This document shows positions 3,163 to 60,925 of a DNA stretch of 64,000 nt, piece after piece; the stretch's first letter is position 1; the number at the start of each line of letters is the position of its first letter. Source of the DNA: Cenococcum geophilum 1.58. Lineage: Eukaryota > Ascomycota > Dothideomycetes > Gloniales > Gloniaceae. Location of the stretch: the NCBI GenBank assembly GCA_001692895.1, contig KV748186.1:1417785-1481784 (forward strand). The letters are read 5' to 3'. The position numbers and the translations under genes were made by a program. Under the pieces are notes generated by a model. That model had not been told where the DNA came from. It saw only the letters and a program-made list of their open reading frames with translations, and did no database searches.

Positions 3163-3363
3163 AGTCGGTTAGGAGGTATAGGTAGGAGAGGGGATCCTTA
3201 GGAGTATTCGCTTATTAAAATTGGCTTGTTGTTCGCTTAGGCGTAAACGTCCTACTTATACCTCCTTCGCAAAGTCGATTGTAGCTTTGACCGCGCTAAT
3301 GTCCGGGAAACGCCACCTCGACAAGGGTGTGGCATGAGCGGGTTGGCACCTCCCTGCTAGCGC
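3163..3363 (+). repeat. Inverted-repeat arm A with terminal motif
   Basis: This 201-bp stretch is repeated in inverted orientation at 16261-16456. Matching pieces include AGTCGGTTAGGAGG, the GAACAACAAGCC/GGCTTGTTGTTC pair, and GCCACCTCGACAAGGGTGTG. Its right end is copy A of the terminal motif found seven times in the window (AAGGGTGTGG ... CCTCCCTGCTAGCGC). CpG and CA content here is better preserved than in the surroundings. Confidence 0.8.
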
Positions 3364-4384
3364 AGCCGAAGCTGCTGCGGCAGCGCTTGACTTTGCTTTG
3401 GTATAAAGTAATTCCGTTACTTGAACGCGTAGTTAAGTTGCTTAGAACCGCACAGTCGCTTAAAAAACAGTAATAGTAATGAAATGAATGATATTGGAAT
3501 GAATTAAAAATGAGAATTAATTTAACTATAATAAATATAGGCCTTAATATAGGCCTATATCTATAGAGTCCGAAGTAATTGTTATAGATACCAACTAAAA
3601 AGGAATAAAGGGAATCTGCTTATATAAGCAGGAAATGTATATAGAGTTACCTCAGCGAGCTTAGACGTGATTTTGGTTGGCGCGGATATTTTATTAGTCC
3701 GCTACGCTGACTAACTCTTTATAGACGCGCCGCTAAAATTATATCTAAGCGCCTTTGTCAAGACTTATCAAACTTATTATTAATATCCGTACTATAGACG
3801 GTGCGGATATTTAATTTAGTTAACTATAATATATAATATTGTTTTAAAAAGTTTATTAATTATATACTGGTATATAGGCTTTTGGAAGAACTAATTATTA
3901 TATTTTAGTAATTACTTAGGCAAGTAATTAATTCTTTTAAAGTTAAAAAATATGTTATTAAGGATATTAACGTATTAACCCTCTATATAGCGCAATAAAA
4001 AACCCGCTAATATATATAAAATCTATATAGAATTATAACTATGCGCTATAAGTACCTATTGCTATATTATAAACCTACTACCTTTATGTTAGCGCGGGCC
4101 TTAGAGGGTCGACTAGCGTTATATTTGTGGTAAGGGCGGCGGTGCAATTATGTACTTAATAATCGCGAACTTAACGGTTATAGACTTAATAGCGCTTCCT
4201 GCTTAACGGCGCGGGCATAGTTAGGGCTAATATATTTATCAATTATATACTAGGCACTGCTAATTAATTTAGTAATATTTTTAAGAGCGTAGGTGTTATT
4301 AGAGGATAGATTAATTTCGTTTAAGTTGGTAACTACCTGCTATATAAGGTTGGTCGATAAGTTTTATAAAATATGCGAAAGTCC
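3364..4384. other. AT-rich spacer, no gene recognised
   Basis: Apart from the fold-back repeat at 3660-3749 I see only RIP-like AT-rich sequence with dense stops in all frames. Confidence 0.5.
3660..3749. repeat. Small fold-back repeat, copy 1
   Basis: CTTAGACGTGATTTT at the left is mirrored by AAAATTATATCTAAG at the right, a RIP-type decay of AAAATCACGTCTAAG. A cleaner copy lies at 38650-38720 with a perfect 15-bp inverted repeat. Both lie a few hundred bases or less to the right of a copy of the terminal motif. Confidence 0.55.
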
Positions 4385-4493
4385 CTTAGACTAAGGAATT
4401 GACCCCCTGTTTAAAAATGGTTTAGCGGATATCCGCGTAGTAGATGTTTAATTATCCGCAAAATAAATAGGGGTATTAATTCCTTAGTTTAAG
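4385..4493. repeat. 109-bp fold-back (MITE-like) element
   Basis: The left end CTTAGACTAAGGAATTGACC is matched by the inverted right end, whose complement reads CTTAAACTAAGGAATTAATA. The complements of the inner parts (CCCC) also pair. The centre holds GCGGATATCCGC. It has the size and shape of a MITE; the superfamily is unknown. Confidence 0.55.
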
Positions 4494-4869
4494 CTTGCTA
4501 AGGTAATATATAGAGGACTCTTCTAGAACCCTAAGATTAAGGCATTTCCCCTACCTAGTAATGGCCATGTTCTTTAAGGCACGTAATTGTTTGGCCGAGT
4601 TTATATATCCTTTATTTTAATATATTTAGACTTATTCTAGGGTAGGATTTACAGAGGTAGGAGTACTTAGGAATATCTATAGTTATTAAATTTCTTTACT
4701 TTCTTTAAATATTAGTCTCCTAGGCTTCTTAGTTTACGGCGTATAGCATATCTAATATTTTAGACTATTAGGCACAAAACATCTCTCTATATATTGTCGA
4801 CTGTTAAGGTCACTGTTAGGTATTACCTTATAACTTACTACCCTATTTCTTACTATCTTACCTACCCTT

Positions 4870-5299: not shown

Positions 5300-7080
5300 T
5301 TTATATATGTTTTGTTCTAGATTTAATAGCTTAACAACTAATATATAATAATCCTACCTAAAGCCTATACCTCTTCCGATAACCATATAACTTAATCTCT
5401 AAATATCCGATCTGTTGTTTTTGTTGAAGATTAATAGTCCTTTTACCTTTTCTGAGAACCTTCTCGCCAGAGCTTTTAATTTAATGCTGACTGCATTACT
5501 CTCGCTTTGCGGGAAAGACTCAGATCTATTATATTAGACTGCGTCGCTCTATTTTACTAAATTAAATAGGATATCTATATAATGGATCTCTCCATTATAT
5601 GCTATCTAAGACTACGACGGCACGCCCTAAGACGAGGGGTGTTCTATCCGCTTTATTTTCTTATCCTCAAACCGTTACTATAGGAGGCTTTGATGTAGAT
5701 AGCGCTAGAGTATACCAAATTTTTTCTAGGTATTGAAACTGCTTATAAGGCGTTCCTCTAGTCTAGAGATCGTAATAAATCTATTAGTACTCTGCGTAAG
5801 GGCTCTCTTTAAATATCCTTTAAAGATATTTTTAAAAAGAGAGATCTTAGTGTAATCGGAATGCCCCTGGGCCACACTTAGAAATTAAAAGTCGGCTAGA
5901 AATGCACTTAGACTATATTAAAGTGTTAGATACTTCTAAATACGCGTTAAAGTATAATTACTAAACCCTATAAAGTTGCAGCTACTAGATAGACTTACTT
6001 ACTCACCCTAGTTAGGGTTTTGTAGCAAATCTAGCTTTTACATTCCTAGAATGTCTAAGTCGTTGTAAAATAAATTGTTTGCCGCGATAAGGCTCTTTCT
6101 TGTAACACCTATCCCCGCTAATTAAGTACTCCTTCCTCTATATCGCGATGATAATCGTTAATATTTTCGCAGATATAGAGCGGAATACCTAATGTATTTG
6201 GGATCTTTATATATTGTCGGGCTCGACGGGGACTAAGAAAGCCTCTGGTGGAATCTTTAGCCAAAGTTGCGGCAATCGTATAGTAGGCTAAACTGAAGTA
6301 TTGCCCTATTTTTTTAGACTCCTTATCCTAGTCCTTAAGTATGCTGTATCTGTTAGTGCATCTTTTATAAGACTAAATTATGCAAATTGAGTTAACTTAG
6401 AGGAATTGTACACCTAATTCTCGCGTAACCGTTACAGCATCTTAAAATATCGTTGGTAGATTACTATACTTAATACTTTTACATCTCTTTTTAATATTAC
6501 ACTTATAAGTGCAAAACGTTTCTTTAATACCTTTGTCGACCTTACCCTAGCGATAAGATAAAGTAATATATCTTCCTCGTTCTATTTCGCCCGGGCGGTA
6601 AAGACGCAAATTTGGGTTCTTATTATCTCCCACATTAAGAACCTTTGTTAGTAGTGTGACCTAGGATTTAAGGCGACAATTATACTCTTTATTGTAATAC
6701 TAAAGCTACTTTTAGAGCAATTTGAAATGGACTAGACCCCTAGCTTCCAGTAATGTCGGGAATCCAATTTATATATTATTAATATCTTTAGGAGAGTGTG
6801 TAGCTATTATCCGCATAGTAAAGGGTTAATTTCCTACTTTCTAGTGTTCTTTAAATTAGGATAAAGAACGTATACATTAATCTGGGTTAATATATATCCT
6901 AAGAATTGGTACAGAAGTATTGACAAACTTTAGGGTAGACCCATCTCTATAAACATCTATAACTTCTTAATCGCTTTTAATAGATAACTTAAAATGTTAA
7001 TAGACTATAGTGCAGAGCTTATAAGCCTCTACAGTTAGTTTTCGGAACTTAAAAGGGCTATTATTAGACATTATATTAAA
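5300..7080 (-). pseudogene. HET-domain (heterokaryon incompatibility) protein, RIP-degraded
   Basis: The minus strand reads the core HET motif order in one frame. From about 6636 downwards it reads LNVGDNKNPNLRLYRPGE, then YITLSYRWGK (6541-6570, where the tryptophan codon is now TAG), then LPTIF.DAVTVTRELG and VQFL.VNSICII (near 6400), then GQYFSLAYYDCR (near 6280). In intact HET proteins these correspond to Y(I)ALSYCWG, FQDAV, LWIDSLCI and the Y..A..TI block. Before the core, CRLKS.VTLL fits the usual upstream region. Dots mark RIP stops. HET proteins trigger programmed cell death on fusion of genetically different hyphae. The start and the C-terminal limit are approximate; the part below 5850 is read with less certainty. 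A better-preserved stretch lies at 5430-5660. Confidence 0.75.
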
Positions 7081-7263: not shown

Positions 7264-7762
7264 GCCTACTTACTTACTATAGTACTGAATATAACCTCGT
7301 TAGCTGTAGTTATACTTACTCTCCGCTAAACAGCTTTACTTACTACCTATAGCTATAAATAGACTCTTGTTAGCTATAGTTATACTTACTCTTTACTAAA
7401 TAGCTCTATTTACGAACTATAGCCATAAATAGACTCTCGTTAGCTGTAGTTATACTTACTCTCTGCTAAATAGCTCTACTTACTTACTATAGCCATAAAC
7501 AGACTCTCGTTAGCTGCAGTTATACTTACTCTCTACTAAATAGCTCCACTTACTCGCTATAGCCATAAAAAGACTCTTGTTAGCTATAGTCATACTTACT
7601 ATCCGCTAGATAGCTTTACTTACTTACTATAGCTATAAATAAACTCTTATTAGCTATAGTTACGCTTACTCTCCGCTAGATAGCTCTATTTACTTCCTAT
7701 AGCTATAAACAGACTCTTATTAGCTATAGTTATACTTACTCTCTACTAGATAGCTCTACTTA
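7264..7762. repeat. 70-bp tandem satellite, left block (about 7 copies)
   Basis: The unit of 70 bp contains GACTCTCGTTAGCTATAG, TTATACTTACTCTCCGCTA, AATAGCTCTACTTA and CTATAGCTATAAA. Copies vary mainly by C/T and G/A. The array is interrupted after ...CTCTACTTA by the chromovirus at 7763 and resumes at 14106. No coding signal is visible. Confidence 0.9.
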
Positions 7763-7955
7763 TGTCACGGAACAAGGGTAGTAGCTATAGAGCGTATATA
7801 TTTAAGGAGTCTATAAGACGTTACATAATTAATTGTAAGGGTTAAGGGCGTAAGGAGGTAATATACCTACGCGTAGCTGATATAAGCTATACATAAGGTG
7901 TATATAAGAGCACGGGGCTCTTCTATAGAGGCCCCTACGGTGGGGTTCCGTAATA
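7763..7955 (-). repeat. LTR (3') of the first chromovirus
   Basis: 193 bp starting TGTCACGGAAC; the end has decayed to GTTCCGTAATA. Differences from the partner are overwhelmingly C/T and G/A transitions. Confidence 0.9.
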
Positions 7956-8110
7956 TTACCCCCCCTTTTATAGAGGCGGAGCTTTGGTAACGCTGTAGTT
8001 ACTATATATATATAAAAGGGACACTTAAGGTATAAAAAAGAAGAAAGGGGGGTATTGCTAAAGGTTTAAAACAACGTTATATAGTAAGGCTTAGCATTTA
8101 AGAATCCAAC

Positions 8111-8151
8111 TAATTAGACAACTTTAACCGCTGGTTAAAGTTCCTAGATAT
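8111..8151 (-). other. Conserved palindromic block, chromovirus 1
   Basis: TAATTAGACAACTTTAACC is followed by the mirrored GGTTAAAGTT (palindrome 8120-8142). The same block lies at 18366-18404 and 43204-43235 in the other two chromoviruses, each between the chromodomain and the polypurine tract. It may be an RNA hairpin of the 3' untranslated region or the remains of a conserved C-terminal peptide (minus-strand frame EL.PAVKVV). Confidence 0.6.
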
Positions 8152-11100
8152 TTTAATAATATTCCGGTTATATAATCGCACTTTACCGCAATTTAACGGT
8201 AATTTACCCTTACGTGGTAATATATAACGGTTTAACTCTATAAGGGCTCCTATAGAGGATTGGGTATAAAATCTCTACTTAAGCCCGGTTTCTGTAGGTT
8301 TACATAGTAAAAGTTACTAATTAGATCCTTTGCATTTTTAAAGTCTTTCTATAGTTACCATTCTAGCTAATTTATACCAAATCCTGTGTATATAGCTTTA
8401 TAGTAGAGCCGTTGTCCTCTACCTTTGCTAAAGTATTTAGAGTTAATAATTTGTTTAATAGTCCACTCCTTATAGTTCTTATTTTTGTTCTTATCTCAAA
8501 TTAGTATTAGTAAAGGTTTAGGCTATATCTACCCTAATAAGGGGTTAGGCTAATAGAGGTGTAGTAGCTATAGGTAAAATATAGGCTATATCCCATGGGT
8601 AGCTAGGGTAGATGGGAGTTCTAGCTTATATACGGCTCCTCTATTAATAACTTATTTAATTAAATAGGGGCTAAGGTTCTTATAATTAAGTAACTTTATA
8701 GGCCTTTGCGTAGAGATATTATATATATTTAGCTATACCTAGTTACTAACACACATCTCTGGTAGTGGCGTTTTATAATAGTTAGTAAAATAGGCCTACT
8801 TTACTTAAGCCCAGGCCATTTCTCCCTTATAGTAGTTGAGTAGATTTTTTATATAGTTTGCATGCTAGTTAGCAAGTAGTATCTTAAGGCGTTTTCTATA
8901 TGGTAGTTTCTTATTAATAGGTTCTAGTAGCTCTATGCCGGATTAGGGGTAATAACCCTTATTTGCGAAGAACGGGGTAAGTCCTATAGTAGTTAAGACG
9001 TAGTTATTTGCTGCGAATTTACCTAGTAGAAGGTAATCCACCTAGTTATCTTAACTATAGGCGACTACCTATTATAGGTACGCTTTTATATTGGCATTAG
9101 CGTTTTTTAGTTACCTAGCAGTTTTATAATAGAAGGATATAGATATCTTAATGGAGATGCTAAGGCGTTAGTAGATTTGTCTTTATACATTAGAGTTAAA
9201 TTATATGCCTTAGTTAGACGTAATTAAGTTAGGTAACCTATGTAGTTAGTAAACTTTATAAAGAAAGGCGTTAGTAACGTCGTTAACGGCTACGCCTTTG
9301 GTTAGGACGTAGTGGCGCTCTTTTATAAGTTGGTATATTATTATAAGGATGTTTTTATAGGTACGGCCGTGTCGTTTATAGGGTGGTAGGTTAATAATAA
9401 AATCTATAGTAATATCTGCCTATTATTATATAGGTACTAGTAGAGGGTATAGTAGTCCTTAGTACTTTATATTAAAGGCCTTAGCGCGTTTATAACTATA
9501 GCAGGCGCCTATAAAGTGTTTAACTAAGTCTATTATTTTTAGCTAGAAGTAGTATTAGCTAAAAAGCTCGTAGGTTCCTTCTCTGCTTAGGTAGCCGCTT
9601 AATTAGAGGTTGTAGGCTATTTAGATTAGTTGCCGTTATAGATTTTCTAAGTTAGGGAAAAATAGGCGACCTCTGTAATAGAGCCTATTCTCTTTTACTT
9701 TTAAGGCTACTATATTAATCTAGCCTAAGCTTTAGAGGTTAGTAGGTAGCGTATAGGCGCTAGCGGTCTTTATGGTAATAAGTTAATATAGTAATGGGTT
9801 AATAAAGGTGTTATATGCCGTAGTAATAAGCTCGTTAATTTTAAGAGGTAACTTTAGTTCTATAGTATAAAGCTAAGGTATAGTTGGCTCTATTATAGGT
9901 AATATGCCTAGGGCCAAATTTTATGCTTTTAGGATTATTTGTTATTAGAACTAATTATAAGGGTTATCTTTAGACTAAGGAAGGTCTTACAAGCGGTGTA
10001 TTAGGCTATTAGGTTTAGTACCTTATACTCCTAATCTATATATAATTTTAAAGTTAAAACTAGAGAGGAACTTGTTCTAACGTACTTAGCGTTAGTTTAG
10101 TTACTTTATAGTTATAAAGTACTTAAGGTTGCGATGGTCCGTAAGGACTTTAGTTAGCTAGTTAGGCTCTACTAAGAAGAGTTCTAGTTAAAATTCTTTA
10201 AACGCTTATATAATTGTAAGAAGTTCTTTATTATAGATCTTATAGTTATACTCTTATAGTATAAGCTTAGACAAGTAGAATGCGACTAGGTAAAGGAAAC
10301 CGTCGTTACCTATTTAGGAAAGAACGCCTATATTAATATGGTCTAAGGAGTTAGTTTTAAAATAGAGTTATTGTTTTAGTGTAAAGTAGGCTAGAATAGG
10401 TGCTTTAGTAAAGGTATTTTTAAGGTTTTAGAACGCCTTCTTGTATTTAGGCGTCTAGGTAAAGTATAGGTACGTTTTTCTTCCTTTTACGGAAAGGCCC
10501 TTTATTCGCATTATTGCTATAAGTAGTGCTACTATACCTAAGAAGTTATATATAAATTTTTAATAGAAGTTAGCGAAACTAAGGAAGGCTTATACGTTCT
10601 TAATGCAGTTAGGGGCTTACTATTTAGTAATTATATATACCTTCTTAGGGTTTATACAGATACCCTTAGTAGTAATAATTAGTTTAAGGTATTTTACTTC
10701 TATAACTAAGAATTTATATTTCTTTAAATTAATATAAAGTCCTACATCCCTAAGGCGCTGTAGGACCTTTTAAACGTGTTTAGTATACTTAGAAGGGTTA
10801 TTGCTATAAATAAGTATATCGTCTAGGTACGCGGAGTAGAAGTCATTAAGGTAGTCCTATAAGGTGTTATTAATATAGCTTTAGAAGGTGCCTGGGCCGT
10901 TATATACGCTAAAGGGTATAATAGTATATTTAAATTGGCCAAAGCGTAATGCAAATATGGTTTTCTATTTGTTACCTTCCTATATTTAGAAATAGTTAAA
11001 GGCGGCGATAATATTAAGCTTAGTATAGATTTTAGCTTGGCTAAGCCGCTTAAGGGTCTCCCGTATAAGTGGTACTGGGTATTAATTTTTAATTATAATA

Positions 11101-13902
11101 GTGTTAAGTCCTCTATAGTTAATATAAAATTAAATACCTCCTTTTAGCTTTTTAGTAAGAAGGATAAGGGCGGTTGCTAGTAATATGCTAGGATAAATAA
11201 ACTCTTTATTAAGGTACTTATTAATATACTTTCTTATAACTAAAAGTTTGTCTTTTAATATTAGGTAGGGTCTCTTATAAGGTAGCGTTTTTTCTTATTT
11301 AATATTAATAGTATAGTTATTAGGTTAATATAGGGGGAGTATATCTGCGCCCTTTTATAAGCATATATTAATAAAGTTATAGTACCTCTTAGGGAGGAGC
11401 TTGCGGAGTTCTTTGTTTGTAAGTCCTTTTTTAAGTTTTATAAACTTCTTAAAGTCTAAAGGTAAAAGTCTATAGAGTTCCGTAGGGGCGTTGTCTTCTA
11501 AAAGGTTAACTATATCTATCCTATTACTATAGAGGACGTAGTTTTATTCTTTATTAAACTTATATAGTTATAATTGGGAAGCTATAGTAACGGTTTAGCC
11601 TTTCCTATATGCTATACGGTAGAAGGCCGCGGTACTTATGTAGTAGTAGTTAGTTATAGGTGGGATAATAAGGGGTTTCTTAGGTTAATATCCTAGTAAG
11701 TAAATAGAGGTGGCTAGGCTATATCCTAGGCAAGTCTCTTTACAGTATTTAGAGTTAAAGGTTACTTTTCTCTTTTCCTAGTTAATAGTAGGGTTGTATT
11801 ATTTAAGCTAGCTCATTCTAAGAATAATAGGGTAGTTAGTAAGTAGTATAATATAGGCCTAGAGCTCTTTTTGGTGCCTATTTATATCTAAATAGAATTA
11901 TACTATATAGGCAATCTTTTATACGGTATAACTACCGTTAGTAAGTTATAGGGCGCGGGCTTTAGTAAGGGGTAAGGTAGGTAGGTTATAAGTACGTATA
12001 AGTTAGGTATTTATAAATTAGTTAATAACTCCGTAGTTAATTATAAAATAGCTTTTATATTATTTTATAGCAGTAGTTCTTATTATAGGTAAAACTATCT
12101 ATTTCCGTTCATTTATCTTTATTAAGTTATTTATTAAGTAGGCTAATATATAGATCCCTCTATTATTAGGGCGTCCTAACCTATGACTTAGGGCTAGGAC
12201 TTAGTGTTTTCCGCTTTTATATCTAATTCTACTACTATTACTGCGTCTTTATCTTGTACGGTAATAGCGTATAGCAACGTATTTAGTGTTTAGGGCATTA
12301 GGTTAGGTATTAGGTAGCGGGTACTAAACCTAGCTATTAGGTAGTTTGGGTTATTATAATAATAGCCTTTTTAATAGTATCTATAGTAGCGTCCTAATTT
12401 TTAGAGTAGCTCGCGCTTTCTATCTAGGAGTTTTTATAGAAAGGTTAGTATAGAAAGGTTAATATTAGCTCTAGTGGTACTTAAGGTAGTGGGCGTCGGT
12501 AGCTTAGTATATATAGGTTTAGTAGGCCCGGAGGGCTTTTATAGAGAGGTCTTTAAGTAAGGGTTAGTAGTAGCAATCTAATTTAGTTGTTGTTTAATCT
12601 TCTATAGGGCTGCTACCATGTTATAAATATTGTTATAGTTATAGCTAGCGGCTGCGTAACTAAGGCGATAAGTAACTTTTTTAAGGAGATCCTCCTAGTC
12701 TTTAGTATTATCTTAGGTAAGGGCTCCGGTATATTCCTAAAATTTAATATAGAACTTATTAAATAATTTAGTAGGGCTTATCTTTAGGGTATATAGTTTA
12801 GCTTAGTTAGTGGCTAGTAGGTCGTAGTTACGGTATATTAGGTTAAGATCGTTAAGGACTTCTTAGTAAGACTACTACTTTTAGGGGCTACTAGTCTTCT
12901 ATTAGGCGAAGAGTCTGTTAAATAGTATACCCTTTATTTACCTAATAATGTAGCTAATCTTAGTATCTTTTATAGGAAAAAGGTAGGCGCTCTAAGTTAG
13001 TTTCTTATAGATTTATATCTTCTAGTAGCTATATTCCTTACGGTCTCCTTAGAAGACTAGGGGATTAAGGTAGCATATATTAGATCTTACGGTAGCAGTT
13101 TAGGTTCAATTATTATAGCTTTTATTATTACTGCTTTAGTAGGGGTTTCTATTAGGTAAAGCTACTTAGCGCTAACCCTCTATTAAGCGTTAAGTAGGTA
13201 AAGTTACTAGGGGCGTAAAGACTTAGGTGGCGTTGTATATAGTAGAGAGGTATCTAGCGTTATTACAAATGTGCTTATTAAGCTAAGATTGTAAGTATTT
13301 AATTATGCCTTTTTTTTAGTGACTGTAGCAATTAGTATAATCTTATTCTTCTTTAACTGTTAAATGTTACGTTTAGACATACAGAGGTTATCTTCGGTTT
13401 CTTAATATATGTTATCCGCGAGCGCCTTATAAGCTTATAGGTCTTAGATAATATTACAATCTTAGGTAGTACGCATCTTAGCTTATATAAGCTTTAGGTG
13501 GTAGTTCTATAGAAGGCGGTAGTATTTATTAGGGTCTTGTACTACTATTTTTATAAACATCTTAGCGTCTTGTATTTCGATTTTAATAGGTAGTAGCCCT
13601 TCTATTTACTTATTCGTAGTTATATAGTTAATAAAAGATAAGATATTATTGGTGTCTATCTTCTTAGGGGTTAGGGCTAATAAATCGAATTCTCCTAGGA
13701 TTAATTGGCGTCGTAGGTTAAGTATAGGTATTAGATTATTCTTTAGGTTTAATATAATAGCTAGTAAGGAATATTGTCTTACTATTATGGGTTCCTTAGA
13801 AGTATAAAGTAAGGTAATTTATAGATACGCTGCTTTTAGTAGCGCGTACAGTATTATAGAGATGTAGAATTGGTTATAGGCTAAGCGTTAGTAGTAAGGG
13901 GG

Positions 13903-13912
13903 CGCAACGTAA
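13903..13912 (-). promoter_or_regulatory. Predicted self-priming site, chromovirus 1
   Basis: Two bases inside the 5' LTR the minus strand reads ACGTTGCG. Its complement CGCAACGT recurs in that LTR (minus strand of 13968-13975), about 45 bases downstream of a TATA-like GTATATTA. No TGG typical of tRNA priming is present. Confidence 0.6.
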
Positions 13913-14105
13913 TGTTATGGAACGAGGGCAGTGGCTATAGAGCGTATGTATTTAAGGAGTTTATAAGACGTTGCGTAATTAATTATAAGGGTTAAGGGTG
14001 TAAGGAGGTAATATACCTACGCGTAGCTAATATAAGCTGTACGCGAGGTGTATATAAGAGCACGGGGCTCTCCTATGGAGGCCCCTACGGTGGGGTTCTA
14101 TGACA
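13913..14105 (-). repeat. LTR (5') of the first chromovirus
   Basis: 193 bp, TGTTATGGAAC to GTTCTATGACA, same length as 7763-7955. It is followed by ACTTA and then by the resumed satellite. Confidence 0.9.
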
Positions 14106-16260: not shown

Positions 16261-16456
16261 CGCTAGCAGGGAGGGTGCCGACCCGCTTATGCCACACCCT
16301 TGTCGAGGTGGCGTTTCCTAGACATTAGCGCGGTCAAAGCTACAATCTACTTTACGAAGGAGATAGGACGTTTATACCTAAGTGAACAACAAGCCGATTT
16401 TAATAAGCGAATACTTCTAAGAATTTCCTCTCCTACCTACACCTCCTAACCGACTA
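16261..16456 (-). repeat. Inverted-repeat arm B with terminal motif
   Basis: Inverted copy of 3163-3363, beginning with CGCTAGCAGGGAGGGTGCC, then CGACCCGCTTATGCC and ACACCCTTGTCGAGGTGG, and ending near CCTCCTAACCGACT. Differences between arms are mostly transitions. The arms are 13 kb apart; removing the chromovirus leaves about 6.6 kb between them. Confidence 0.8.
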
Positions 16457-17699: not shown

Positions 17700-17942
17700 G
17701 TGCGGAGATATTGTAGCAAAGTCCTAGTAGTTAACCCTATAATTATACGGATAACTAAAAAGAAGAGAAAGAACAGTCACTGTTTTAGGTAGACGAGTAA
17801 CGCCGTAAAGAGCCTTAATAATTAATTAACTATAATCTCTAATATATAAGGCGGGATAAGGTAGAGCTAGATAATATTTATAGATAGAATAACGTAGTGG
17901 AAGAACGTATAAAAGATGTGTCTCTTATTAAATGCGATCCTA
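17700..17942 (+). pseudogene. Unidentified plus-strand gene, part before chromovirus 2
   Basis: A frame reads KEEKEQSLF.VDE.RRKEP and then DKVELDNIYR, followed by NNVVEERIKDVSLIKCDP, with stops where CAG/TGG are expected. The frame continues across the insertion into 24137 onwards if one copy of the TCCTA target duplication is removed. The charged, helical composition suggests a coiled or DNA-associated protein, but I recognise no family. Confidence 0.45.
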
Positions 17943-18153
17943 TGTCACGGCTTAAATAAATACCTCTAAACCGAAGCTTGAACGAATGCTATATTACAAA
18001 GATACTAAGCTAAAGAGAAGGAAAAGGGGTTGCTAGGACCGATGTAAACAAATATATAGGGTGAGCCGCCAAGGCGCTAGCTTTAGGCGGGCTAATCGCA
18101 GGTCAGCAGAATATGACAGAATTTGGCAGGTAATGTACGATAGCACCGTTACA
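17943..18153 (-). repeat. LTR (3') of the second chromovirus
   Basis: 211 bp, starts TGTCACGGCTTAAA and ends CACCGTTACA. It contains GATACTAAGCTAAAG, the complement of the priming motif. Confidence 0.9.
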
Positions 18154-18365
18154 TTACCCCCCTCTTTAAAAGAAAGCCTGCCCTTAGGCTTAGTTAGAAA
18201 AAATAGGGTAGCACTAGGCTTATAAACGTAGGATTATAAAAATATAAGATAAGGAGATAAAGGGGATACGAGTCCGTCCTAACTAAGTATAAAGGGCGAT
18301 TGTGGGCTAAGTAGAAGCACTAGGCTAGAAAGAGTAGCCGCTAAAAGTCTTAGCACGGATCTAAC

Positions 18366-18404
18366 TAATTAGATAACTTTAACCGGCGGTTAAAGTTCCT
18401 AGAT
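18366..18404 (-). other. Conserved palindromic block, chromovirus 2
   Basis: TAATTAGATAACTTTAACC GGC GGTTAAAGTTCC, with the palindrome at 18375-18397; same block as at 8111 and 43204. Confidence 0.6.
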
Positions 18405-23908: not shown

Positions 23909-23920
23909 AGCTTAGTATAA
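23909..23920 (-). promoter_or_regulatory. Predicted self-priming site, chromovirus 2
   Basis: The minus strand next to the 5' LTR reads TTATACTAAGCTC. The 10-mer AGCTTAGTAT (its complement, 23909-23918) recurs in the LTR on the minus strand of 23980-23989, about 47 bases after a TATATAT-type motif that is clearest in the left LTR. Confidence 0.65.
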
Positions 23921-43203: not shown

Positions 43204-43235
43204 TAATTAGACAACTTTAACCGCCGGTTAAAGTT
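43204..43235 (-). other. Conserved palindromic block, chromovirus 3
   Basis: TAATTAGACAACTTTAACC GCC GGTTAAAGTT, palindrome 43213-43235; same block as in the other two chromoviruses. Confidence 0.6.
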
Positions 43236-46200: not shown

Positions 46201-49200
46201 ATTTGCGGATAAAACCCTTATCTAGTATTTTATTAATCCACTTCTTTACATACCTAAGTTTAGTAGGTAAGAGTAGTCTATTTTTATAGTACGGGGCCTA
46301 GTTTCCGGGGGTAATCTTAATTTTATGGTCCTATGGTTGGTAAGGGGGTAGCTTATCTATATTTTTAGGGAGAAAGTGCTTAATATATTTACTAAACTCC
46401 TTTAGTAGGCGTTATAAAATGTCTTTACGGGTTAATCCTAGTTTGCCTTTTAGGAATTTTTTAATATTAGTGTTAACTATCTTCTAACGTAAAAGCTCGG
46501 GTTTGGTTTTTAGATTTATCTTAAGGAAGTTATAGAAATAGGGGGGGAGCGCTTTATAGGCTTCCTTTATTATATAGTCGCCTTCTACTAGCTAGCGGAA
46601 AGACCTTTTTAATAGGTTCAGTACTTCTATTAGGCCTATAGGCAGCTCTTTAAGCAGCTATCGGTGCTTATCTTATTTAACTAGTTTTACTAGCTCCGCT
46701 ATATAGATCCTTATTACTTTTACGTCTTTTTATTTATAGAACTAGGTAAAATTAATAGCACGGGTATATTTAATATTGTCTAGGTTGGGGCATATCTAAC
46801 TCTTTAGTGCTACGGCTAGGCTAGCACAGCTTAGTTAGCCTAGGGGGGCGGAAATAAGGCGGCGGCCCTATATGGTACGCGCGGGAGACGGGTATAAGGT
46901 TAGGCGTTATAGTGGCGCGGTTTCTATTATCTGGGTCTCGGTAGTTCTATAGCCAGTCCTTACTATAACGCGAGCTATAGTGTGCGTATATAGTATATAG
47001 CTTAGTTCCGGGTGTTAGGCTAGGCGGCTAGGGTTTAAATAGTGCCTAGGTTGGGGTTGGTTTCTTAATAGTAGTGGCGCGAAGCGGACCTTCTTCCTTA
47101 GTCTCGGTAGGGCTAGCTAGCCCATTATTTTAGTCTTAAGTACTAGGTTAGTCCAGTCTTCTACTATTTCGTTTCTTTATAGCTATACGGGCTCCCCTTT
47201 ATCAGGAACGTCTTCTACTATTAGGGCTTTATATATAGTCTTAGGCACTAGGCTTAGTAGTGCTAAGTATTTACATAGGGCGTCCCTACTAACGTTGGCT
47301 ATCCCTTATAGGAGGTAGTACCTAGAGTAGTAGTCTAAGTTAAAGCGGATTTTAAGTTTTCTAAAGCTAGGACGGGGCTTATACTTCTAAAGCTAGGGTA
47401 TATCTAGGATAATTGGGGTAGTAGGCGAGAGTTTGGTAATGAAAAAGAGTATAGCTTTAGTATAGAGGCTAATTAATATTTAGGCGGTAAAGTAGTCCGT
47501 AATAAGCAAAGTTGGGATATTATCTATAAGGCGCAGTAGCCTAGGTGCCAGCAGCTTCTTAGTTATAACGTTATACTTTCTTATAATAGACTCTGCGTTA
47601 GTAAATACTATTATAGTACTACCGGAGTCTACTAAGCTTACTATATTAATATAAACTTAGGGGTATAGGTTACGTAATAAGGAGAGTTAGGTTTAAATAA
47701 GGATTAATTTCTTATTACTATTTGCTAATCTAAGATTAAGTAGTAGTTTACTAATAGAAAGGACTAATTAATCTAGTAATAGGGACCTAATCTTCTCGTC
47801 TTCCTCCTTATATAGTTTAGACCCTTAGGCACGACTTAGTCTAAGAGTTTGCCTTTTAACAACTAGGGTATAGGGCTGTCTTAGCGGGGTGGTTTAGTGT
47901 CCGTCTGGCTGGCGGTGTTTATCTCTATTTTAGTTAGGGTATAGGAAGATAATACCTTGCCGACGACGTGGCCGTGTTCGTATTTACTAGCGCGAAGTCG
48001 CTAATACTAGGCGTTGTTAACGGGTTAGGCTCCCATATAGGGTATAGTTTAAAGTAACTAAGCCGTAGGGTTAAAGGGGGGGGGTTGTCCGCCGCGGCTA
48101 TAATAGGCTCCGCGATCGCCACGTCTATAATAGACTCCACGGTTACCACGTCCGCGGTTATTTATTCGCATTATTTAATAGGGTAGTATTAGGACTAGGT
48201 TTGCTATCTTAGCGGGGTTATAGGCATCCTTTTAGTAGCCAGGTAGGCTATAGGCAAGGTATAATCTATTATTAATACGGCGCTTACGCTCCGTGTCTAA
48301 GATTCTATTAAGGTCTATAGGTTCTCTAGTTACTACTAGGGTTAGGGTTAACATAGGGGCAGGGGCTTAGGTAGGTAGGCGGTAGTTAGCGTTCTTCTTA
48401 AGGTTAGCTTAGTGTGTATAATTTGCGAGGTTTTTAGCAAACATATCTATCTGCTTACTCTAACCTATATAGTCGCTGTTGTTAATTTTATAGGCTAGTC
48501 TAAGTACCAGCTTTTCCATCTTTAGAGAGATAAACTTTTAGAGTAGGTCCACCTTCTATTTATTTATCTTTTTAGCGCAGACTATTAGCTTATTAAGCTC
48601 TCCCTTCTAGGACTAGTAATTACGCTTACCTTAGGGGAAATAGTTAAGCTTATTCTTTGCGACCTAGGTTATATTAAGGACCTTATAGTAGGCAGTAAGG
48701 TCTTTAAGCATATCTTCCTTAGTAGGCCATTTCTATATAGATATATTGTTTGGGTTCTCGTGTATAAGCTTTAGGCCCTACTTAATAAACTTATAGGCCT
48801 TATCCTCTAGTATATCCGAGATGTAAAGGATTTAGGATTAAACTATATTAAAGTAGTCCTAGTCCCGGTTAAAGACTTCCTTAATCTTAATATGCTAGGT
48901 CTTAAAATTAGCTTATTATTCTAGCGGGGTGCCTTTTCCACTAAATATTGGCGGGTCTTTAGATCTCCGTTTTTTCTGCTAGGTTACTACCGTTATTATA
49001 GGGGTTAATTATTTTAGAACGGTAATAGTCTCTGCCTAGGAGTTAATAGTTCCTATCTAGGAAGCGATAAAGGTACTAAGGTTTTTGTTAGCTTTTTTGT
49101 TAGCAGTGTTTGTATTATATATACACTATAGTCCTACTTTAATATTGTTAAGGAACTTATTAGTATAGTTAATAAGGGTAAGGTAAGCTTTGCTAGGCTT

Positions 49201-49486
49201 AAAGGTCTTAGGGTATAGTAGGGAGCGGCAGATTATCTATGCGATATTAGGGTATATCTCTATAAATAGGTCTATAAAAACGTTATAGGGGTTCTAAGTT
49301 TCGGCCATTTCGGCATCATTAGTGTCGCCTATCTAGGCGCTAGGTAAAAACTAAGGATTGTTCTAGAACTGTGCTAGGGACGTATTAGTTTCAGCAGAGG
49401 CGCGCGTAAGTCGCGATTACTTTAGGGCGGAGGTTAATTGGCTAGGGTACGGGGAATTAGTAATTGCGATGGGGCGTAAATTAAAG

Positions 49487-49497
49487 ATACTATAAAC
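49487..49497 (-). promoter_or_regulatory. Predicted self-priming site, chromovirus 3
   Basis: The minus strand after the 5' LTR reads GTTTATAGTATC. The 9-mer ATACTATAA (its complement, 49487-49495) recurs in the left LTR (minus strand of 42808-42816) and with one C/T change in the right LTR (49536-49544), about 42 bases downstream of a TATTTATATA motif. Confidence 0.55.
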
Positions 49498-49684
49498 TGT
49501 TATAGTGCTGTAATAAAGTAGACTAAATAACTACGTTATGGTATAAAGAGGGGAAGAAGGTAGAAAGGGGGTATTATATATAAATAGTAGGGCCGGCCGC
49601 TAAGTCGCTAGTGGTGGGCTAGCTAATAGTAGGGAATAGTATAAGACAGTATAAAATAGTATACGTTAGGTTAGTGCCGTAATA
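49498..49684 (-). repeat. LTR (5') of the third chromovirus
   Basis: 187 bp, TGTTATAGTGCTG to GTGCCGTAATA. It differs from its partner by transitions. Confidence 0.9.
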
Positions 49685-49765: not shown

Positions 49766-52700
49766 ATAAGATGTAGGTTATAAAAGAAGTAGTTAAGGTA
49801 GTAGTTAGGAACAGAAGCAGTGGTAAGGAGGTAATAGCGCTACTCCTTAATTAGCGTAGTGACGAAGTTAAGATTACTAAAGAGGTAGTTAAGGCAGTAG
49901 CTAGGAACTGGAGCAGTGGTAAGGAGGTAATAGTACTTCTTCTTAATTAGCGTAGTGACGAAGTCAAGATTACTAAAGAGGTGGTTAAGGCAGTAGCTAA
50001 GAACTTAAGTAGCGGCAAGGAGGTAATAGTACTACTCCTTAATCAGCGCCGCGATAGGATTATAGTTACCCCTTAGCTAGTCCAGGCGCTTATAAAATCA
50101 TTTAATGCGCTAGTTATAAATATACTTCTTATATAGTGCGGCGACGAAGTTAAGATTACTAAAGAGGTAGTTAAGGTAGTAGCTAGGAACTAGAGCAGTG
50201 GTAAGGACGTAATAGCACTACTCCTTAATTAGCGTAGTAACGAAGTTAAGATTACTAAAGAAGTGGTTAAGGTAGTAGCTGGGAATAGGAGTAGTGGCAA
50301 GTAGGTAATAGCACTGCTCTTTAATTAGCGCAGCGATAAAGTTAAGATTACTAAAAAGGTAGTTAAGGTAGCAGTTAGGAACTAAAGTAGTAGTAAGGAG
50401 GTAATAGCACTGCTTCTTAATTAGCGTAGCGACGAAGTTAAGATTACTAAAGAGGTGGTTAAGGTAGTAGCTAGGAACGAGATTAACGGCAAAAAGGTAA
50501 TAGCACTGCTCCTTAATTAGCGCAGTGACGAAGTTAAGACTACTAAAAAGGTGGTTAAGGCGGCAGCTAGGAACTTAAGTAATAGTAAAGAGGTAATAGT
50601 ACTTCTTTTTAATTAGCGCAGTAATAAAGTTAAGATCACTAAAGAGGTAGTTATAGTAGCAGCTAGAAACGGAAGCAGTGGTAAGGAGGTAATAGCACTG
50701 CTCCTTAATTAGCGTAGTAACGAAGTTAAGATTACTAAAGAGGTGGTTAAGGTAGCAACTAGAAACTAGAGTAGTAGTAAGAAAGTAATAGCACTGCTTC
50801 TTAATTAGCGTAGTAACGAAGTTAAGATTACTAAAGAGGTAGTTAAGGTAGCAGCTAGGAACCTAAAGCAGTAGTAAGGAAATAATAGCACTACTTTTTT
50901 AATTAGCGTAGTAACGAAGTTAAGATTACTAAAGAGGTAGTTAAGGTAGCAGCTAGGAACGGGAGCAGTAGCAAGAAGGTAATAGTACTTTTCTTAATTA
51001 GCGTAGCCGGCGAAGTTAAGAATTACTAAAGAGGTGGTTAAGGCAGCAGCTGGGAACTAGAGTAATGGTAAAAAGGTAATAGCACTACTTTTTAATCAGC
51101 GCCGTGACGGGATTATAGTTATCCCTTAGCTAGTCTTAGGCGCTGACGAAATTATTTAATACGCTAGCTATAATATACTTCTTACGCAGTATAGTAACGA
51201 AGTTAAGATTACTAAAGAGGTGGTTAGGTAGTAGCTAGGAACTAGAGCAGTGGTAAGGAGGTAATAGTACTTCCCCTTATTATGCGGTAGTAACGAAGTC
51301 AAGATCACTAAAGAAGTAGTTAAGGCGGTAGCTAGGAACTGGAATAGTAAGTAAGGAAGGTAATAGTACTGCTTTTTAATTAGCGTAGTAACGAAGTTAA
51401 GATTACTAAAGAGGTAGTTAAGGTAGCAGCTAGAAATGGGAGTAGTAGTAAAAAGGTAATAGCACTGCTTCTTAATTAGTGTAGTAACGAAGTTAGGATT
51501 ACTAAAGAGGTAATTAAGGCAGTAGCTAGGAACAGGAGCAGTAGCAAGGAAGTAATAATACTTTTCCTTAATTAGCGTAGTAACGAAGTTAAGATTACTA
51601 AAGAAGTAGTTAAGGTAGTAGCTAGAAACTAGAGCAATAGTAAGGAGGTAATAGCGCTGCTTTTTAATTAGCGCCGCGACGGGATTATAGTTACCTCTTA
51701 GCTAGTCTAGGCGCTTACGAAATTATTTAATACGCTAGCTATAAATATACTTCTTATATAGTACGGTAATGAGGTTAAAATTACTAAAGAGGTAGTTAAG
51801 GTAGTAGCTAGGAACGGAAGCAGTGGTAAGGACGTAATAGCACTACTCCTTAATTAGCGTAGTAACGAAGTTAAGATTACTAAAGAGGTGGTTAAGGTAG
51901 TAGCTAGGAACTAGAGTAGTAGTAAGGATATAATAGCACTACTCCTTAATTAGCGTAGTAACAAAGTTAAGATTACTAAAGAGGTGGTTAAGGCAGTAGT
52001 TAGGAACAAGATTAACGGTAAGAAGGTAATAGTACTGCTCCTTAATTAGCGTAGCGACGAAGTTAAGACTACTAAAGAGGTGGTTAAGGTAACGGCTAGG
52101 AACTTAAGCAGTGGTAAGAAAGTAATAGTACTGCTTTTTAATTAGCGCCGTGACGGGATTATAGTTACCCCTTAGCTAGTCTAGGTACTTATAAAATTAT
52201 TTAATGCGCTAGCTATAAATATACTTCTTATATAGTGCGGCAAGGAAGTTAAGATTATTAAAGAGGTAATTAAGGTAGTAGCTAGGAACTAGAGTAGTGG
52301 TAAGGAGGTAGTAGTACTTCTCCTTAATCGGCGTAGTAACGAAGTTAAAATTACTAAAGAGGTAGTTAAGGCGGTAGCTAGGAACGGGGGTAGTAGTAAG
52401 GAAGTAATAGCACTACTTCTTAATTAGTATAGTAACGAAGTTAAGATTACTAAAGAGGTAGTTAAGGTAGTAGCTAGAAACTTAAGTAATAATAAGGAAG
52501 TAATAGCACTACTTCTTAATTAGTGTAGTAACGAAGTTAAAATCACTAAAAAGGTAGTTAAGGCAGTAGCTAGGAACGGGAGTAGTAGTAAGGAGGTAAT
52601 AGCACTTCTTCTTAATTAGCGTAGCGGCGAAGTTAAGATTATTAAAGAGGTGGCTAAGGTAGCAGCTAGGAATTAGAGTAAGGAGGTAATAGCACTACTC

Positions 52701-52960
52701 CTTAATTAGCGCAGTAATAAAGTGAAAATTATTAAAGAGGTAGTTAAGGTAGTAGCTAGGAACTAAAGTAGTGGCAAGGAGGTAATAGCACTTCTTTTTA
52801 ATTAGCGTAGCGACGAAGTTAAAATCACTAAAGAGGTACTTAAAGAGGCGGTTTTTAATAAGCGTATAAGTTATAAGCTGGTTTAACTCCTCTATTAAAC
52901 TATTAGCATTAAAGTTACTACTAAAGTAATTAAGGTAGCTGCTACTAGTGGTTAGAAACA
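49766..52960 (+). repeat. 96-bp coding tandem repeat, about 33 copies
   Basis: Period 96 bp checked between GACGAAGTTAAGATTACTAA at 49861 and the next copy at 49957. A variant unit containing GGGATTATAGTTACCCCTTA, then AATGCGCTAG and ATATACTTCTTATATAGTG recurs near 50055, 51110, 51675 and 52150. This gives a higher-order pattern of roughly 11, 6 and 5 units. Open stretches on the minus strand (for example 52695-52961) are shadows of the repeat. Confidence 0.9.
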
Positions 52961-55535: not shown

Positions 55536-55678
55536 AATAAGGGTATAGCCGGAGTGGGTCGGCTATCCTCCCTACTAGGGGTAGTAAAATGCCACCTCTG
55601 CTGACGCCTTTACGCTAATAAATTATATCTTAGCTATAACTTCTCTAAGTACTCTTTATATATACCTTTCTTTATACC
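55536..55678 (+). repeat. Inverted-repeat arm E with terminal motif
   Basis: Terminal motif AATAAGGGTATAGCCGGAG, then TGGGTCGGCTATCCTCCC and TACTAG (55536-55578), followed by GGGGTAGTAAAATGCCACC, CTCTGCTGACGCC and ACGCTAATAAATTA. The whole is repeated inverted at 60781-60925. Confidence 0.85.
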
Positions 55679-55779
55679 CACCAAATGTTATAGTATTTAT
55701 TAGTAAGAATGTATAAGTAGGTAAATATTATCCTAATAGTATACGTGCCTTATAGATTACTATATAAGGAATAACTATT

Positions 55780-56290
55780 ACCTATACTGCGTCTCCTACG
55801 TTAGTGACGAGTAGTGCTTAAAGCACGCCGCCGTAGTAGGATGTTCTGGACTAAGTATATGCTAGTATCCGCTACTTGCCCTTTTATATAGTGCTAAAGA
55901 AGCTTTATATTAATGCTGTTAATAAAATAGGAAAGCTAAGTAGTAGATACTGGTTAGTATAGACGGGTGTTCTTTATTTAGCGCCTTCTTATATCCCTCT
56001 AGCGCTCGCCGGTTTATCTCCTTAGCCGCCTTATACTTCCCCTAATTTTATAGCACTATCGCTAGGTTGCTTACGCTAGTTAGCGTACCTAGGTACTCTT
56101 GCCCTACTACCTTCTCTCTTCCCTTTAGCGCTCGCCGGTTTATCTCCTCGGCCGCCTTATACTTCCCCTACCACCGTAATATTAAGGTAATGCTATTTAT
56201 ACTATTTATCGTGTCTAGGTGCACCGCTTTAAAAGTGGCCTCCCTTGCCTTATTTTACTGGAGAATGTCTATAATATAGACGAAAAAAGA
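55780..56290 (-). pseudogene. Kinesin-light-chain-type TPR fragment (NLR C-terminus)
   Basis: The minus strand reads KLC-type TPR units with few stops: GKYKAAEEINRRALKGREKV, then LGTLTSVSNLAIVL, GKYKAAKEINRRALEGYKKA, LNKEHPSILTSIYYLAFLF, and the closing unit YKASLALYKRASSGY with LSPEHPTTAACFKHYSSL. The direct repeat of about 50 bp at 55994-56045 and 56119-56172 is one TPR motif. Such arrays form the C-terminus of fungal NB-ARC-TPR proteins; no NB-ARC is visible upstream, so only the 3' part is present. A plus-strand open stretch at 56067-56279 is a shadow. Confidence 0.8.
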
Positions 56291-57699: not shown

Positions 57700-59960
57700 A
57701 TTGTTAAGCTATATTATATAGCGTCTCTATTAGATCTCTCTTAGGTTAAAATATTACCTTCTTTAAAAGGTCTCTTTATATCTTATAGCCCGAACTTAAT
57801 CTTCTCCTTTAATTATACCTGCTTGGGCTTAGAAAAATAGTGCGAATTTATAACCTTCTTCCCTAACGTTACCTATACTTTAATAAATAGTAGGATAATA
57901 TGCTTAAATAGAATTAAATGCAAAGAAATACTAGTATTCGTTTTGGAAACGGATTTTGTTCTTAATGGAACAGACTTCTTCCTAGATAAAATAATTAGTA
58001 TAAAGACTTGCGGATATAGTCTAACCGAAAACAATACCTAAAAAAATCTTACCGCTGTCTTTTAGGATAATACTTGCACTATAGCAATATCCGCTTTACT
58101 ACTACTAATAGGTGTTAACTATGGAACCTTAGTATTGGAAGGAATGACAGTTACCTATAAATACTTAATCGACATTAAAATCTATATAGATGTTTAGCAT
58201 GAGCACGCGACGCAAAACGCTACTCTTAGCGGCGTAGCTGTAACTAAAGCAACGCTAACTTAGAACTTTTTTGCTAGCCCTCTTACGCTAATAGCCTCTT
58301 AAGTAAGCCTAACGCAGAATTAGTCGTTGTTAGCGTCTTAAGCTAAACGACTAAGCGTTCTCGCACTTCTTCTCTATATACTCTTCGCGTTTTACTTCCT
58401 AGCGCCTAGTGTTTATAAGCTTAGGACAGACCTAGAGATACGCTAGATTAAACAACACAGTATAGAGGAAGCTGTAATTGCTAAGTTATTAACCTTATAG
58501 CCTTAAGCATTTCCTATGGAGTTTCTAGTACTAGAACCTACCGATGCTTAGGATAAGTATTAGATTAAATACTAAGCTCTATTATAGGATCTTTACGAGT
58601 TTTATAAGATCTTTTATTTATAGTTAACGCGAAAGACCGTTTTTAAAGTCGTTAATGGAGTCACCTGGTTTTAGCTAGGCGAAGATATTTAGAAGCGCCT
58701 AATAAACACCGTTTATAACAATATCTGCAAGATATTTATTAGAGGCGTCACTAACGAACTTAGTAAAGACTTTATTTTTAAGGAGAGTATTAAGGCGGAT
58801 ATAGATTTCTGTGTCTAGGAGCTGCGTATGGGTATTAAAAAGAACATACTAGAAGAGAAGGTGACGATTGCACTTAAAGAGGCAGTAGCGTACATCTTTG
58901 GGTTATACGCCGTTTGTAACTTTTTGGTTAATCTTGTATATTAGGTAGTAATTAGTAAGAGTCTATTTAGGGAGCTTTTAAAGGAGTTTTGCCCGGATCC
59001 TTGCAATAATAATAGTAAACTCTAACTGCTTAATCCTAATAATTGTGGGAAGTGTGGAAATAAGGTAAAGAATCCTGTTATAGCTTATTGCCGCAGCTTA
59101 TTATACTAATTAATCTTTAGTATAAATTGGGTTAATGTTTTAACGGCGCATATATTGTTTAAGCCTATAGCTATACTAGTGACTTTAAGTTTATAGATTG
59201 CTGCGGTTAAGGCGAGAGCTATAATACCTATACCTGCGTTAGTATAGACTAGGGCACTAGCTTCTGCGTATAGTATACTATAGCTAGTATAGAGGAGTTT
59301 GGGGTTACTTGCTAGTACTCTAATAAGTATACTAATAGTTTTATTTGCGTAAAACTTCCTAGTGGGAAACACAGCGTCTGTCTAGACGTGACGTCCTATT
59401 TAAACCAATATCGCCCTTTATATAATATAGAATAGCTACCTATAAACTTAACACCTAGCTTGCTAGTCTAGCTAAATATATATTGGCCGTGGCTCTTCCT
59501 AGTCCCAAATAGCAGAGGCAGCGGGTTTCTGTACTAAGAGAACCCCACCTATCTCTATAACCTTAACCCCAAATACCTTCTTATATAGAGCCTTAACAAT
59601 AAAATTATTGTTAATACCGCCTGTATCCTAATCTTAGGCACTAATGTCGATACCTATAACTTAGTTAGTAGTACTAGCGGTCTTTTAAGCGGCCATAAGT
59701 TCTATTTCGGATATGACTTGGATATAGATATTAATAGTGTGCAGAGCGATATCTGTTATATTTACTTCTATAATACGATTAATTGTTAGGAGACTGTTAA
59801 TGGGAGTTATAGTAGTTATGGGGTTTAGGATTATAATTTTCCGTTTAATGTGCTTGCTTTTTAGGTCACAACTTATAATATATTATATTCTTAAATTAGC
59901 GGGTAAGTGCTTAACGAAATTGCCTAGGAGTAGACCTACGTCTAGTATATTAGAAGAAAA
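57700..59960 (+). pseudogene. Secreted cysteine-rich protein, unidentified, RIP-degraded
   Basis: A plus-strand frame can be followed for over 2 kb with moderate numbers of stops. It reads FNYTCLGLEK, EFITFFPNVTYTLINSR, TDFVLNGTDFFLDK and VAVTKATLT, later LYEFYKIFYL.LTRKTVFKVV, then IFIRGVTNELSKDFIF and FGLYAVCNFLVNLVY. Near 58980-59070 comes FCPDPCNNNSKL followed by NPNNCGKCGNK, then CFNGAYIV, FKFIDCCG, YTCVSID and FICVKLPSGKHSVCLDV, and near 59740 SVQSDICYIYFYNTINC. Cysteine pairs, N-glycosylation sequons and the NNCGKCGN pattern indicate a secreted, disulfide-bonded protein; I cannot name the family. It lies inside the inverted repeat formed by arms E and D. Minus-strand (59106-59372) and plus-strand (59737-59985) open stretches overlapping it are shadows. 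Confidence 0.5.
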
Positions 59961-60780
59961 TCTAAATAGAAGTTGTTATAGTTAAATTAAGGCGATTGAT
60001 AATAGAATATAACTTTAATTAGCCTAATGTTTCTTCTTGTATATAGAGTATATTGTATTACCTAGGAGAGGTTAGATAGTTAAAAACTAAGATATATATA
60101 ATAAAACGCACTGACTAAACTTATAGTTTTTAATGTAGCGTAATGATATAGTTATATTATTATACGTAGTTGCGTATTACTAAAATTGTTTAAAGTTGTG
60201 CTAAAAAGGTGCCGACCTGCGCGGCGGATTTGCCTCCTATACCACGTATATTGTTAGCGATGGTTTAGAAGCATTATATACAGTATTAGATATTCCGACT
60301 TACTTAATTTCCAGTTTAAAATAGCGCTAAAATAAGGGTGGCGACGTTGTCCTAAAGAGGTTCTAATCGCGGCTATTAGAAATTAAAGGATCATTACCGT
60401 AGTTACGTAATGATTATATAATTATACTAGTATATGCCCCCGCATCCTTTATGCTTAATACAATTAACTTATATTATACTATATACCGCTTATATTCTAA
60501 TAGTGGCATTATTAGGTATAGAACAAGTTAAGTGACTAGATAACTATACTTATGTAATTTTATAGGTAATTAGCGTCTTAAATATTAAGGACTCGCTATA
60601 GAGTATAATGATTATAGCACTATGGAAGTATTAAGGTGTGCGTAGGTTTTAAGTTAGTTAAAAGTTAAAGTATCTCTAACTTCTTTCGGAATATGGAGTG
60701 TTCCGTTATACTAGGAGGGAGTTAGAGTAATACTTTCCTATTTATATATTCTAGTTAATAAATAGTATAGAAATTATTGG

Positions 60781-60925
60781 TAGTATAAAGAAAAGGTGTA
60801 TATAAAGAGTACTTAGGGAAGTTGTAGCCTAGATGTAATTTATTAGCGTGAAGGCGTCGGCAGAGGTAGCATTTTGCCACCCCTAGTAGGGAGGACGGCT
60901 GACCCGCTCCGGCTACACCCTTATT
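60781..60925 (-). repeat. Inverted-repeat arm D with terminal motif
   Basis: Inverted partner of 55536-55678: TAGTATAAAGAAAAGGTGTA, TAATTTATTAGCGTGAAGGC, GTCGGCAGAGGTAGC, ATTTTGCCACCCCTAGTAGG and then the motif GAGGACGGCTGACCCGC, TCCGGCTACACCCTTATT. Better preserved than arm E. Confidence 0.85.

Follow-up and report, generated by a model that had tools for sequence, protein, structure and literature searches.

What does a motif of about 43 bp, repeated in both orientations along a mutated stretch of the Cenococcum geophilum genome, delimit, and which of its two ends faces outward? The stretch, hereafter the window, is the whole 64 kb of DNA analysed (C11:1417785-1481784; C-numbers denote contigs), and it lies in a 177.2-Mb, 162-contig genome; the species is described as having 81% repeats and expanded HET, NACHT, and WD40 families (PMC5023957). 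Our answer, to which we assign a probability of roughly 0.68, is that the motif makes up the outermost ~43 bp of terminal inverted repeats in a DNA-transposon-like family that is large, diverse, and probably non-autonomous. Its plus-minus pairs, in which the CTAG sides of two copies face each other, would bound cassettes enriched for genes of the nucleotide-binding oligomerization domain-like receptor (NLR) and HET classes. Three observations carry this reading: the geometry of the copies, the group-level matching of their inner arms, and the enrichment of the cargo.

Seven copies were confirmed in the window by direct reading, starting at 3320+, 16304-, 28039+, 34556-, 38499+, 55536+, and 60925-, in the same orientation groups as in a preliminary description of this DNA. 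They were also the only matches when both strands were scanned at a fixed threshold with a weight matrix, which was built from family copies including these seven and run without a shuffled control. The 15-bp head alone was not significantly enriched in the window (14 seen at three mismatches, 11.4 expected). A genome search, which the preliminary description had proposed, found a 25-bp core with up to three mismatches in 157 + 176 = 333 copies (reversed control, 0 + 0), and a 15-mer with up to two mismatches gave 1088 + 1122 against 188 + 182. The alignment of 55 copies (column counts in 78) reads AAYAAGGGTRTRGCCGGWGCGGGTCGGCCRYCCTCCCTACTAG, followed by a weaker YGGTGGCRA, with degenerate letters assigned by us. 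An RNA family was ruled out as the identity of the motif, as a search of the window against Rfam gave no match reaching the gathering scores, and one of 55300-55800 gave none up to E 1. The four copies tested had no strong fold (folding z −2.3 to −0.3). Helitrons lack inverted repeats, and a single one of their ends has a hairpin and CTRR; a Helitron 3′ end was likewise ruled out, both by this folding and by the occurrence of the ends as inverted pairs.

Each motif search listed up to about 100 places, and 236 copies were compiled, 210 of them from three motif searches. All 100 listed places were used from each of two core searches, the second core pattern favoring less mutated copies, while 76 of roughly 100 were kept from the 15-mer search. 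Because the remaining 15-mer places were discarded by eye as other-looking sequence, counts were repeated on the two core searches alone (156 copies). Among neighbors within 14 kb in the 210-copy motif-only set, 35 were plus-minus, 12 minus-plus, 7 minus-minus, and 4 plus-plus; the corresponding numbers were 36, 17, 8, and 7 for all 236 copies and 23, 4, 5, and 2 for the core searches alone. The 35:12 excess of plus-minus over minus-plus had a binomial p of 0.001. The listed plus-minus intervals measured 2.9-6.5 kb in 22 of 36 cases and 7.9-13.2 kb in 14, and at least one long interval was inflated by a nested long terminal repeat (LTR) element.

We then compared the ends of 13 plus-minus pairs. 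There were 31 pairs in all, 27 of them outside the window and its duplicate on C13; 20 of these were chosen, ten were fetched, and the three window pairs were added. On the CTAG (inner) side, partner ends were more alike than non-partners (P = 5 × 10−5), and the partner ranked first in 5 of 13, but on the AATAAGGG (outer) side they were not (P = 0.20). At group level, these pairs carry terminal inverted repeats at both ends. Where seen, a subfamily-specific inner arm was detectable beyond the motif over 27-210 bp, reaching 181 bp in pair C5b (z 74), about 160 bp in the window pair 55536/60925 (z 48), and about 190-210 bp in C12 and C5a (z 24). The facing ends of six minus-plus pairs had similarities of 20-30, not above background (off-diagonal median 31.5).

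In a partial Mantel test on 68 copies (78 minus 10 duplicates), the left half of the core covaried with the inner flank (p = 0.015) and not with the outer flank (p = 0.83). This result bears on an alternative that we consider improbable, in which the core is a lox/att-like tyrosine-recombinase site with inverted arms around an 8-bp center, GWGCGGGT, and a DUF3435-type recombinase swaps cassettes without target-site duplication. Read by eye, the arms are indeed imperfectly palindromic around a conserved asymmetric center; in addition, any left flank family can occur with any right one, the 13 pairs gave no convincing target-site duplication, and DUF3435 matches are abundant in the genome. However, if crossovers took place at the center, the left half should follow the outer flank, whereas it follows the inner one, weakly, and this covariation weakens the model. 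Nor did DUF3435 lie near the motif (0 of 95 listed loci on the inner side within 7 kb, 2 on the outer).

The genes near the motif distinguished the two sides as well. Within 7 kb of the 210 motif-only copies, NACHT, HET, or PNP_UDP_1 loci lay on the inner side in 24 of 258 cases and on the outer side in 5, one locus being counted on both sides, and the difference between inner-only and outer-only loci was significant (p = 3 × 10−4). The core searches alone gave 24 inner and 4 outer. By class, 12 of 86 listed NACHT loci were inner (2 outer), as were 11 of 149 listed HET loci (3 outer) and 3 of 36 PNP_UDP_1 loci (1 outer). Control loci were never inner (0 of 326; Fisher 1.6 × 10−9 against 24 of 258): besides DUF3435, listed p450 loci gave 0 of 81 inner and 0 outer, and listed hAT loci 0 of 150 inner and 1 outer. 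Scoring covered 88 of 162 NACHT, 150 of 439 HET, 100 of 346 DUF3435, 150 of 585 hAT, and 92 of 190 p450 candidates, and all PNP_UDP_1 (51) and MULE (93) candidates. Eight of the 35 plus-minus pairs held a NACHT, HET, or PNP_UDP_1 gene, against none of the 12 minus-plus pairs. Thus, the cassettes are enriched for NLR/HET self/non-self recognition genes. NACHT matches were free of stops in 82 of 86 cases, including all 12 inner ones, and some carriers therefore look intact.

Individual flanks showed similar contents. Ten of 31 open reading frames (ORFs) of at least 110 aa were submitted to Pfam; inner-flank ORFs above the cut-off matched the start of a HET domain (C21), WD40 repeats (C6), ankyrin repeats (C113), and DUF7580 (C1), and five of the ten had nothing above it. 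The 4.4-kb pair on C113 combined these ankyrin repeats at one end with the start of a PNP_UDP_1 domain at the other (23.3 bits, below the cut-off of 25.1). In 54 frames from the inner flanks of nine loci, TPR_10 was found in two, TPR_12 in one, and a WD40-type match in one, while no family matched the outer flanks at eight loci with the motif or at one family-A locus (see below) that lacks it.

Such pairs might instead be boundaries of segmental duplications, or of ectopic recombination among NLR loci in regions rich in transposable elements, the motif being a conserved repeat there and itself immobile. Large duplications do occur among the copies: C13:342182-352083 and window 64000-54110 are 90.8% alike, and C16 and C62 match along 16 kb (92%). 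What duplication leaves unexplained is the presence of conserved 43-bp inverted tips around genes of different architectures and the asymmetry between inner and outer sides, in which the transposon-linked controls, DUF3435 and hAT, summed to zero inner and three outer. We regard this explanation as improbable too, a shade more so than the recombinase site.

Conservation fell sharply just outside the AY|AAGGG boundary (48 copies without the family A flank) and only gradually past CTAG. From this drop, the plus-minus geometry, the similarity of partners on the CTAG side, and the position of NLR/HET hits, we conclude that the outer tip is AATAAGGG, with CTAG facing inward. The preliminary description had taken CTAG as the outer end; elements would then lie on the AATAAGGG side, in minus-plus segments such as 34519-38541 and 16263-28080. 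Sequence on that side is indeed common to many copies, including family A (below), and C8:1527159-1532108 repeats part of 16263-28080, breaking off at CTAG. Likewise, the AATAAGGG-side sharing claimed there held for 28039/55536 (z 41) and for 3320/16304 (z 50, over 179-188 bp), but not for 55536/60925, which are alike on the CTAG side instead (z 38). Nevertheless, minus-plus neighbors are outnumbered 12 to 35, their facing ends are no more alike than background, none holds a NACHT, HET, or PNP_UDP_1 hit, and the outer sequence common to the copies is fixed to the motif on one side and variable on the other, as in retroelement copies. We consider this orientation very unlikely, and 34519-38541, once proposed as a 4.0-kb element, looks like a spacer.

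Family A, a repeat on the outer side, was present in 32 of 78 motif copies, a sample biased by one search that used family A as query. In the 30 loci fetched with it (L039-L068), it always ended at the same boundary, followed by the motif in 25 and by a (GTAT)n element in 5. Similarity among motif-bearing copies extended 141-1502 bp from the boundary, and the other end was variable (29 of 30 copies). Family A is thus like truncated retroelement copies anchored at the boundary. It occupies 2848-3319 and 16305-16458 in the window, where a GC-richer LTR-type element at 301-2851 was inserted into an older family-A copy. The (GTAT)n...TATTCTATTATAGCC element, about 95-130 bp long, sits exactly at the tip, between the flank and AAGGG, with a flank duplication of 28 bp at C37 (L077:316-500) and 13 bp at C12 (L085:383-503). 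Its other end differs between these two loci, and it looks like a retroelement targeting the cassette tip. A site-specific long interspersed nuclear element duplicating the first half of the motif was rejected, with one clear case only (C113 right end); of eight same-strand half-motif hits in outer flanks, those besides C113 were neighboring full copies or weak.

In the transposon-like family that we favor, each cassette end would consist of AYAAGGGTRTRGCC as the outer tip, CTAG inward of it, and then a subfamily-specific arm. A transposase acting in trans would recognize the ends and copy or move the cassettes, and repeat-induced point mutation (RIP) would later have ruined many copies. We only infer this mobility, because neither a convincing target-site duplication nor an associated transposase was found. 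The duplication scan covered offsets of −2 to +4 and lengths of 2-11 (70 settings) in the 13 pairs; among the best eight settings, the top z was 2.0 and exact matches numbered 0 of 13, except for 3 of 13 at 2 bp. One possible reason is that the boundary itself may be an insertion hot spot hiding the duplication: outer families recur there, family A is anchored there, and the (GTAT)n element was inserted at the tip. hAT and MULE, the superfamilies searched, were rejected as mobilizers for want of an association with the inner side of the motif (hAT, none of the 150 listed loci; MULE, 1 of 79).

These two negatives weigh against the proposed family, as do several other results. The inner-side partner ranked only 8th-13th of 13 in five pairs (C1, C113, C43, and the window pairs beginning at 28039 and 3320), and therefore two of the three window pairs are without arm support: 28039/34556 ranked 12th, and 3320/16304 ranked 13th, its outer flanks being alike instead. 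The covariation between core and inner flank was small (partial r 0.09). No listed DUF3435 locus was inner, though one remnant lies between 28039 and 34556. Of the 35 plus-minus pairs, 27 had no scored NACHT, HET, or PNP_UDP_1 hit, although the NACHT and HET scores covered part of the candidates and RIP hides other genes. As a separate observation, a PNP_UDP_1 match at C7:443854-445134 departs from the preference for the inner side: it lies about 430 bp beyond a motif, on the outer side, and is directed away from it.

How does the family compare with known systems? Pack-MULE type elements have long inverted repeats and host-gene cargo, and the cassettes resemble them in both; unlike in Pack-MULEs, a 9-11 bp duplication is not evident, MULE transposase is hardly represented on the inner side, and the cargo is enriched for one functional class. 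The closest known system, as judged from published descriptions, is ToxTA (formerly ToxhAT) of cereal Pleosporales. It is described as a 14-kb unit with 74-bp terminal inverted repeats, called non-autonomous, with a cargo including a Patatin-TPR gene of the NLR class and RIP damage in some hosts (PMC6737239, PMC12506042). According to the first study there is no target-site duplication; a TA duplication and the status of Starship cargo were reported later (PMC6737239, PMC12506042). Both systems share a unit bounded by terminal inverted repeats, NLR-class cargo, and RIP damage, but ToxTA is described as a single unit, whereas the present family has end copies in the hundreds, shows no convincing duplication, and carries NLR/HET cargo in a subset. 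Starships, giant transposons of Pezizomycotina, are described as having a DUF3435 captain and accessory genes that include NLRs, patatin-like genes, and ferric reductases; inverted repeats flank some of them (PMC12134995, PMC12506042). The NLR-class cargo and the occasional inverted-repeat flanks are similar; in contrast, our pairs span 2.9-13.2 kb and have inverted ends in common, and no listed DUF3435 locus was found as a captain within 7 kb inside a listed motif. Among titles and opening lines of abstracts, drawn from few subscription journals, no fungal NLR-carrying inverted-repeat family appeared besides ToxTA/ToxhAT.

What emerges is a family of inverted-repeat cassettes, present in many copies and enriched for immune-type genes. 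It is scattered through a large, RIP-scarred genome, and only some cassettes carry recognition genes. This carriage suggests that recognition genes may be dispersed in the form of mobile packages. Should part of the HET/NACHT/WD40-type genes lie between a defined pair of ends, their expansion becomes testable through cassette counts, dating, and presence or absence among isolates. A bolder and tentative possibility, rather unlikely in our judgment, is that fungal immune receptors are dispersed by a dedicated system: one end family, recognized in trans, would have packaged NLR/HET genes with many different architectures as exchangeable cassettes and distributed these genome-wide, so that the repertoire was built and reshuffled by ends and not by local duplication.

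Within the window (Table 1), RIP-type mutation is heavy from ~3.4 kb onward (TpA/ApT 1.75, (CA+TG)/(AC+GT) 0.45), and three stop-to-stop ORFs of at least 120 aa were listed in the 64 kb; the "genes" that the preliminary description saw near the motifs are RIP-type ruins. Its broader proposal, an element family that is dispersed, has conserved ends, and carries varied cargo, was supported. The opposite orientation, which it had mentioned, also fits the contents: the 28039-34556 pair encloses a DUF3435 remnant, and a TPR match lies inside 55536-60925, the only window pair with matching inner arms.

Table 1. Features of the window (positions from its first nucleotide)
Feature	Position	Strand	Remarks
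GC-richer LTR-type element	301-2851		259-bp repeats, 98% alike; 5-bp duplication CTAGG by eye
Left terminal motif, presumed cassette 1	3320..3360	+	GACAAGGG... sub-type; AAGGG outermost, CTAG inward
Degraded HET domain in presumed cassette 1	6097..6570	-	PF06985, E 9.1e-8, X at stops; converted from residues 344-501, minus frame ending at 7599
LTR retrotransposon nested in presumed cassette 1	7762..14098	-	187-bp repeats, 90%; RVT_1, RNase H
Right terminal motif, presumed cassette 1	16263..16304	-	Paired by orientation and common core variant
LTR retrotransposon, spacer between presumed cassettes 1 and 2	17942..24132	.	213-bp repeats, 91%; missing from C8 relative; 5-6 bp duplication ATCCT(A) by eye
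Left terminal motif, presumed cassette 2	28039..28080	+	Direct reading, weight-matrix scan
Degraded DUF3435 in presumed cassette 2	32499..33035	+	PF11917, E 7.8e-20; converted from residues 1200-1378
Right terminal motif, presumed cassette 2	34514..34556	-	Direct reading, weight-matrix scan
Left terminal motif, possible fourth cassette	38499..38541	+	Right partner not recognized before 55536
LTR retrotransposon	42770..49684	-	187-bp repeats, 93%; RVT_1, RNase H
~32 tandem 96-bp (32-codon) repeats, CTAG side of 38499	49783..52843	+	Presumably a fungal NLR-type repeat
Left terminal inverted repeat, cassette 3	55536..55736	+	Motif + about 159 bp
Degraded NLR-like TPR repeats in cassette 3	55964..56185	-	PF13374 E 2.4e-19, PF13424 E 7.3e-14; converted from residues 1472-1545
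Right terminal inverted repeat, cassette 3	60722..60925	-	Motif + about 162 bp

The LTR retrotransposon nested in presumed cassette 1 has apparently split a 70-bp tandem array, of which seven copies lie at 7266-7762 and 13 at 14106-14996. A family search of the spacer at 24200-28000 found nothing. The reverse match to C13 spans 54110-64000, and cassette 3 is therefore part of a duplicated block larger than itself; around window 54108, C13 contains about 0.9 kb of additional sequence. Elsewhere in the genome, the 16-kb repeat (92% identity) shared by C16:1093001-1109000 (L073/L074) and C62 (L075/L076) has two further copies, on C21 and C35, alike over the 3 kb compared. It carries FAD_binding_8 on the CTAG side of the motif and DUF6914 on the opposite side.

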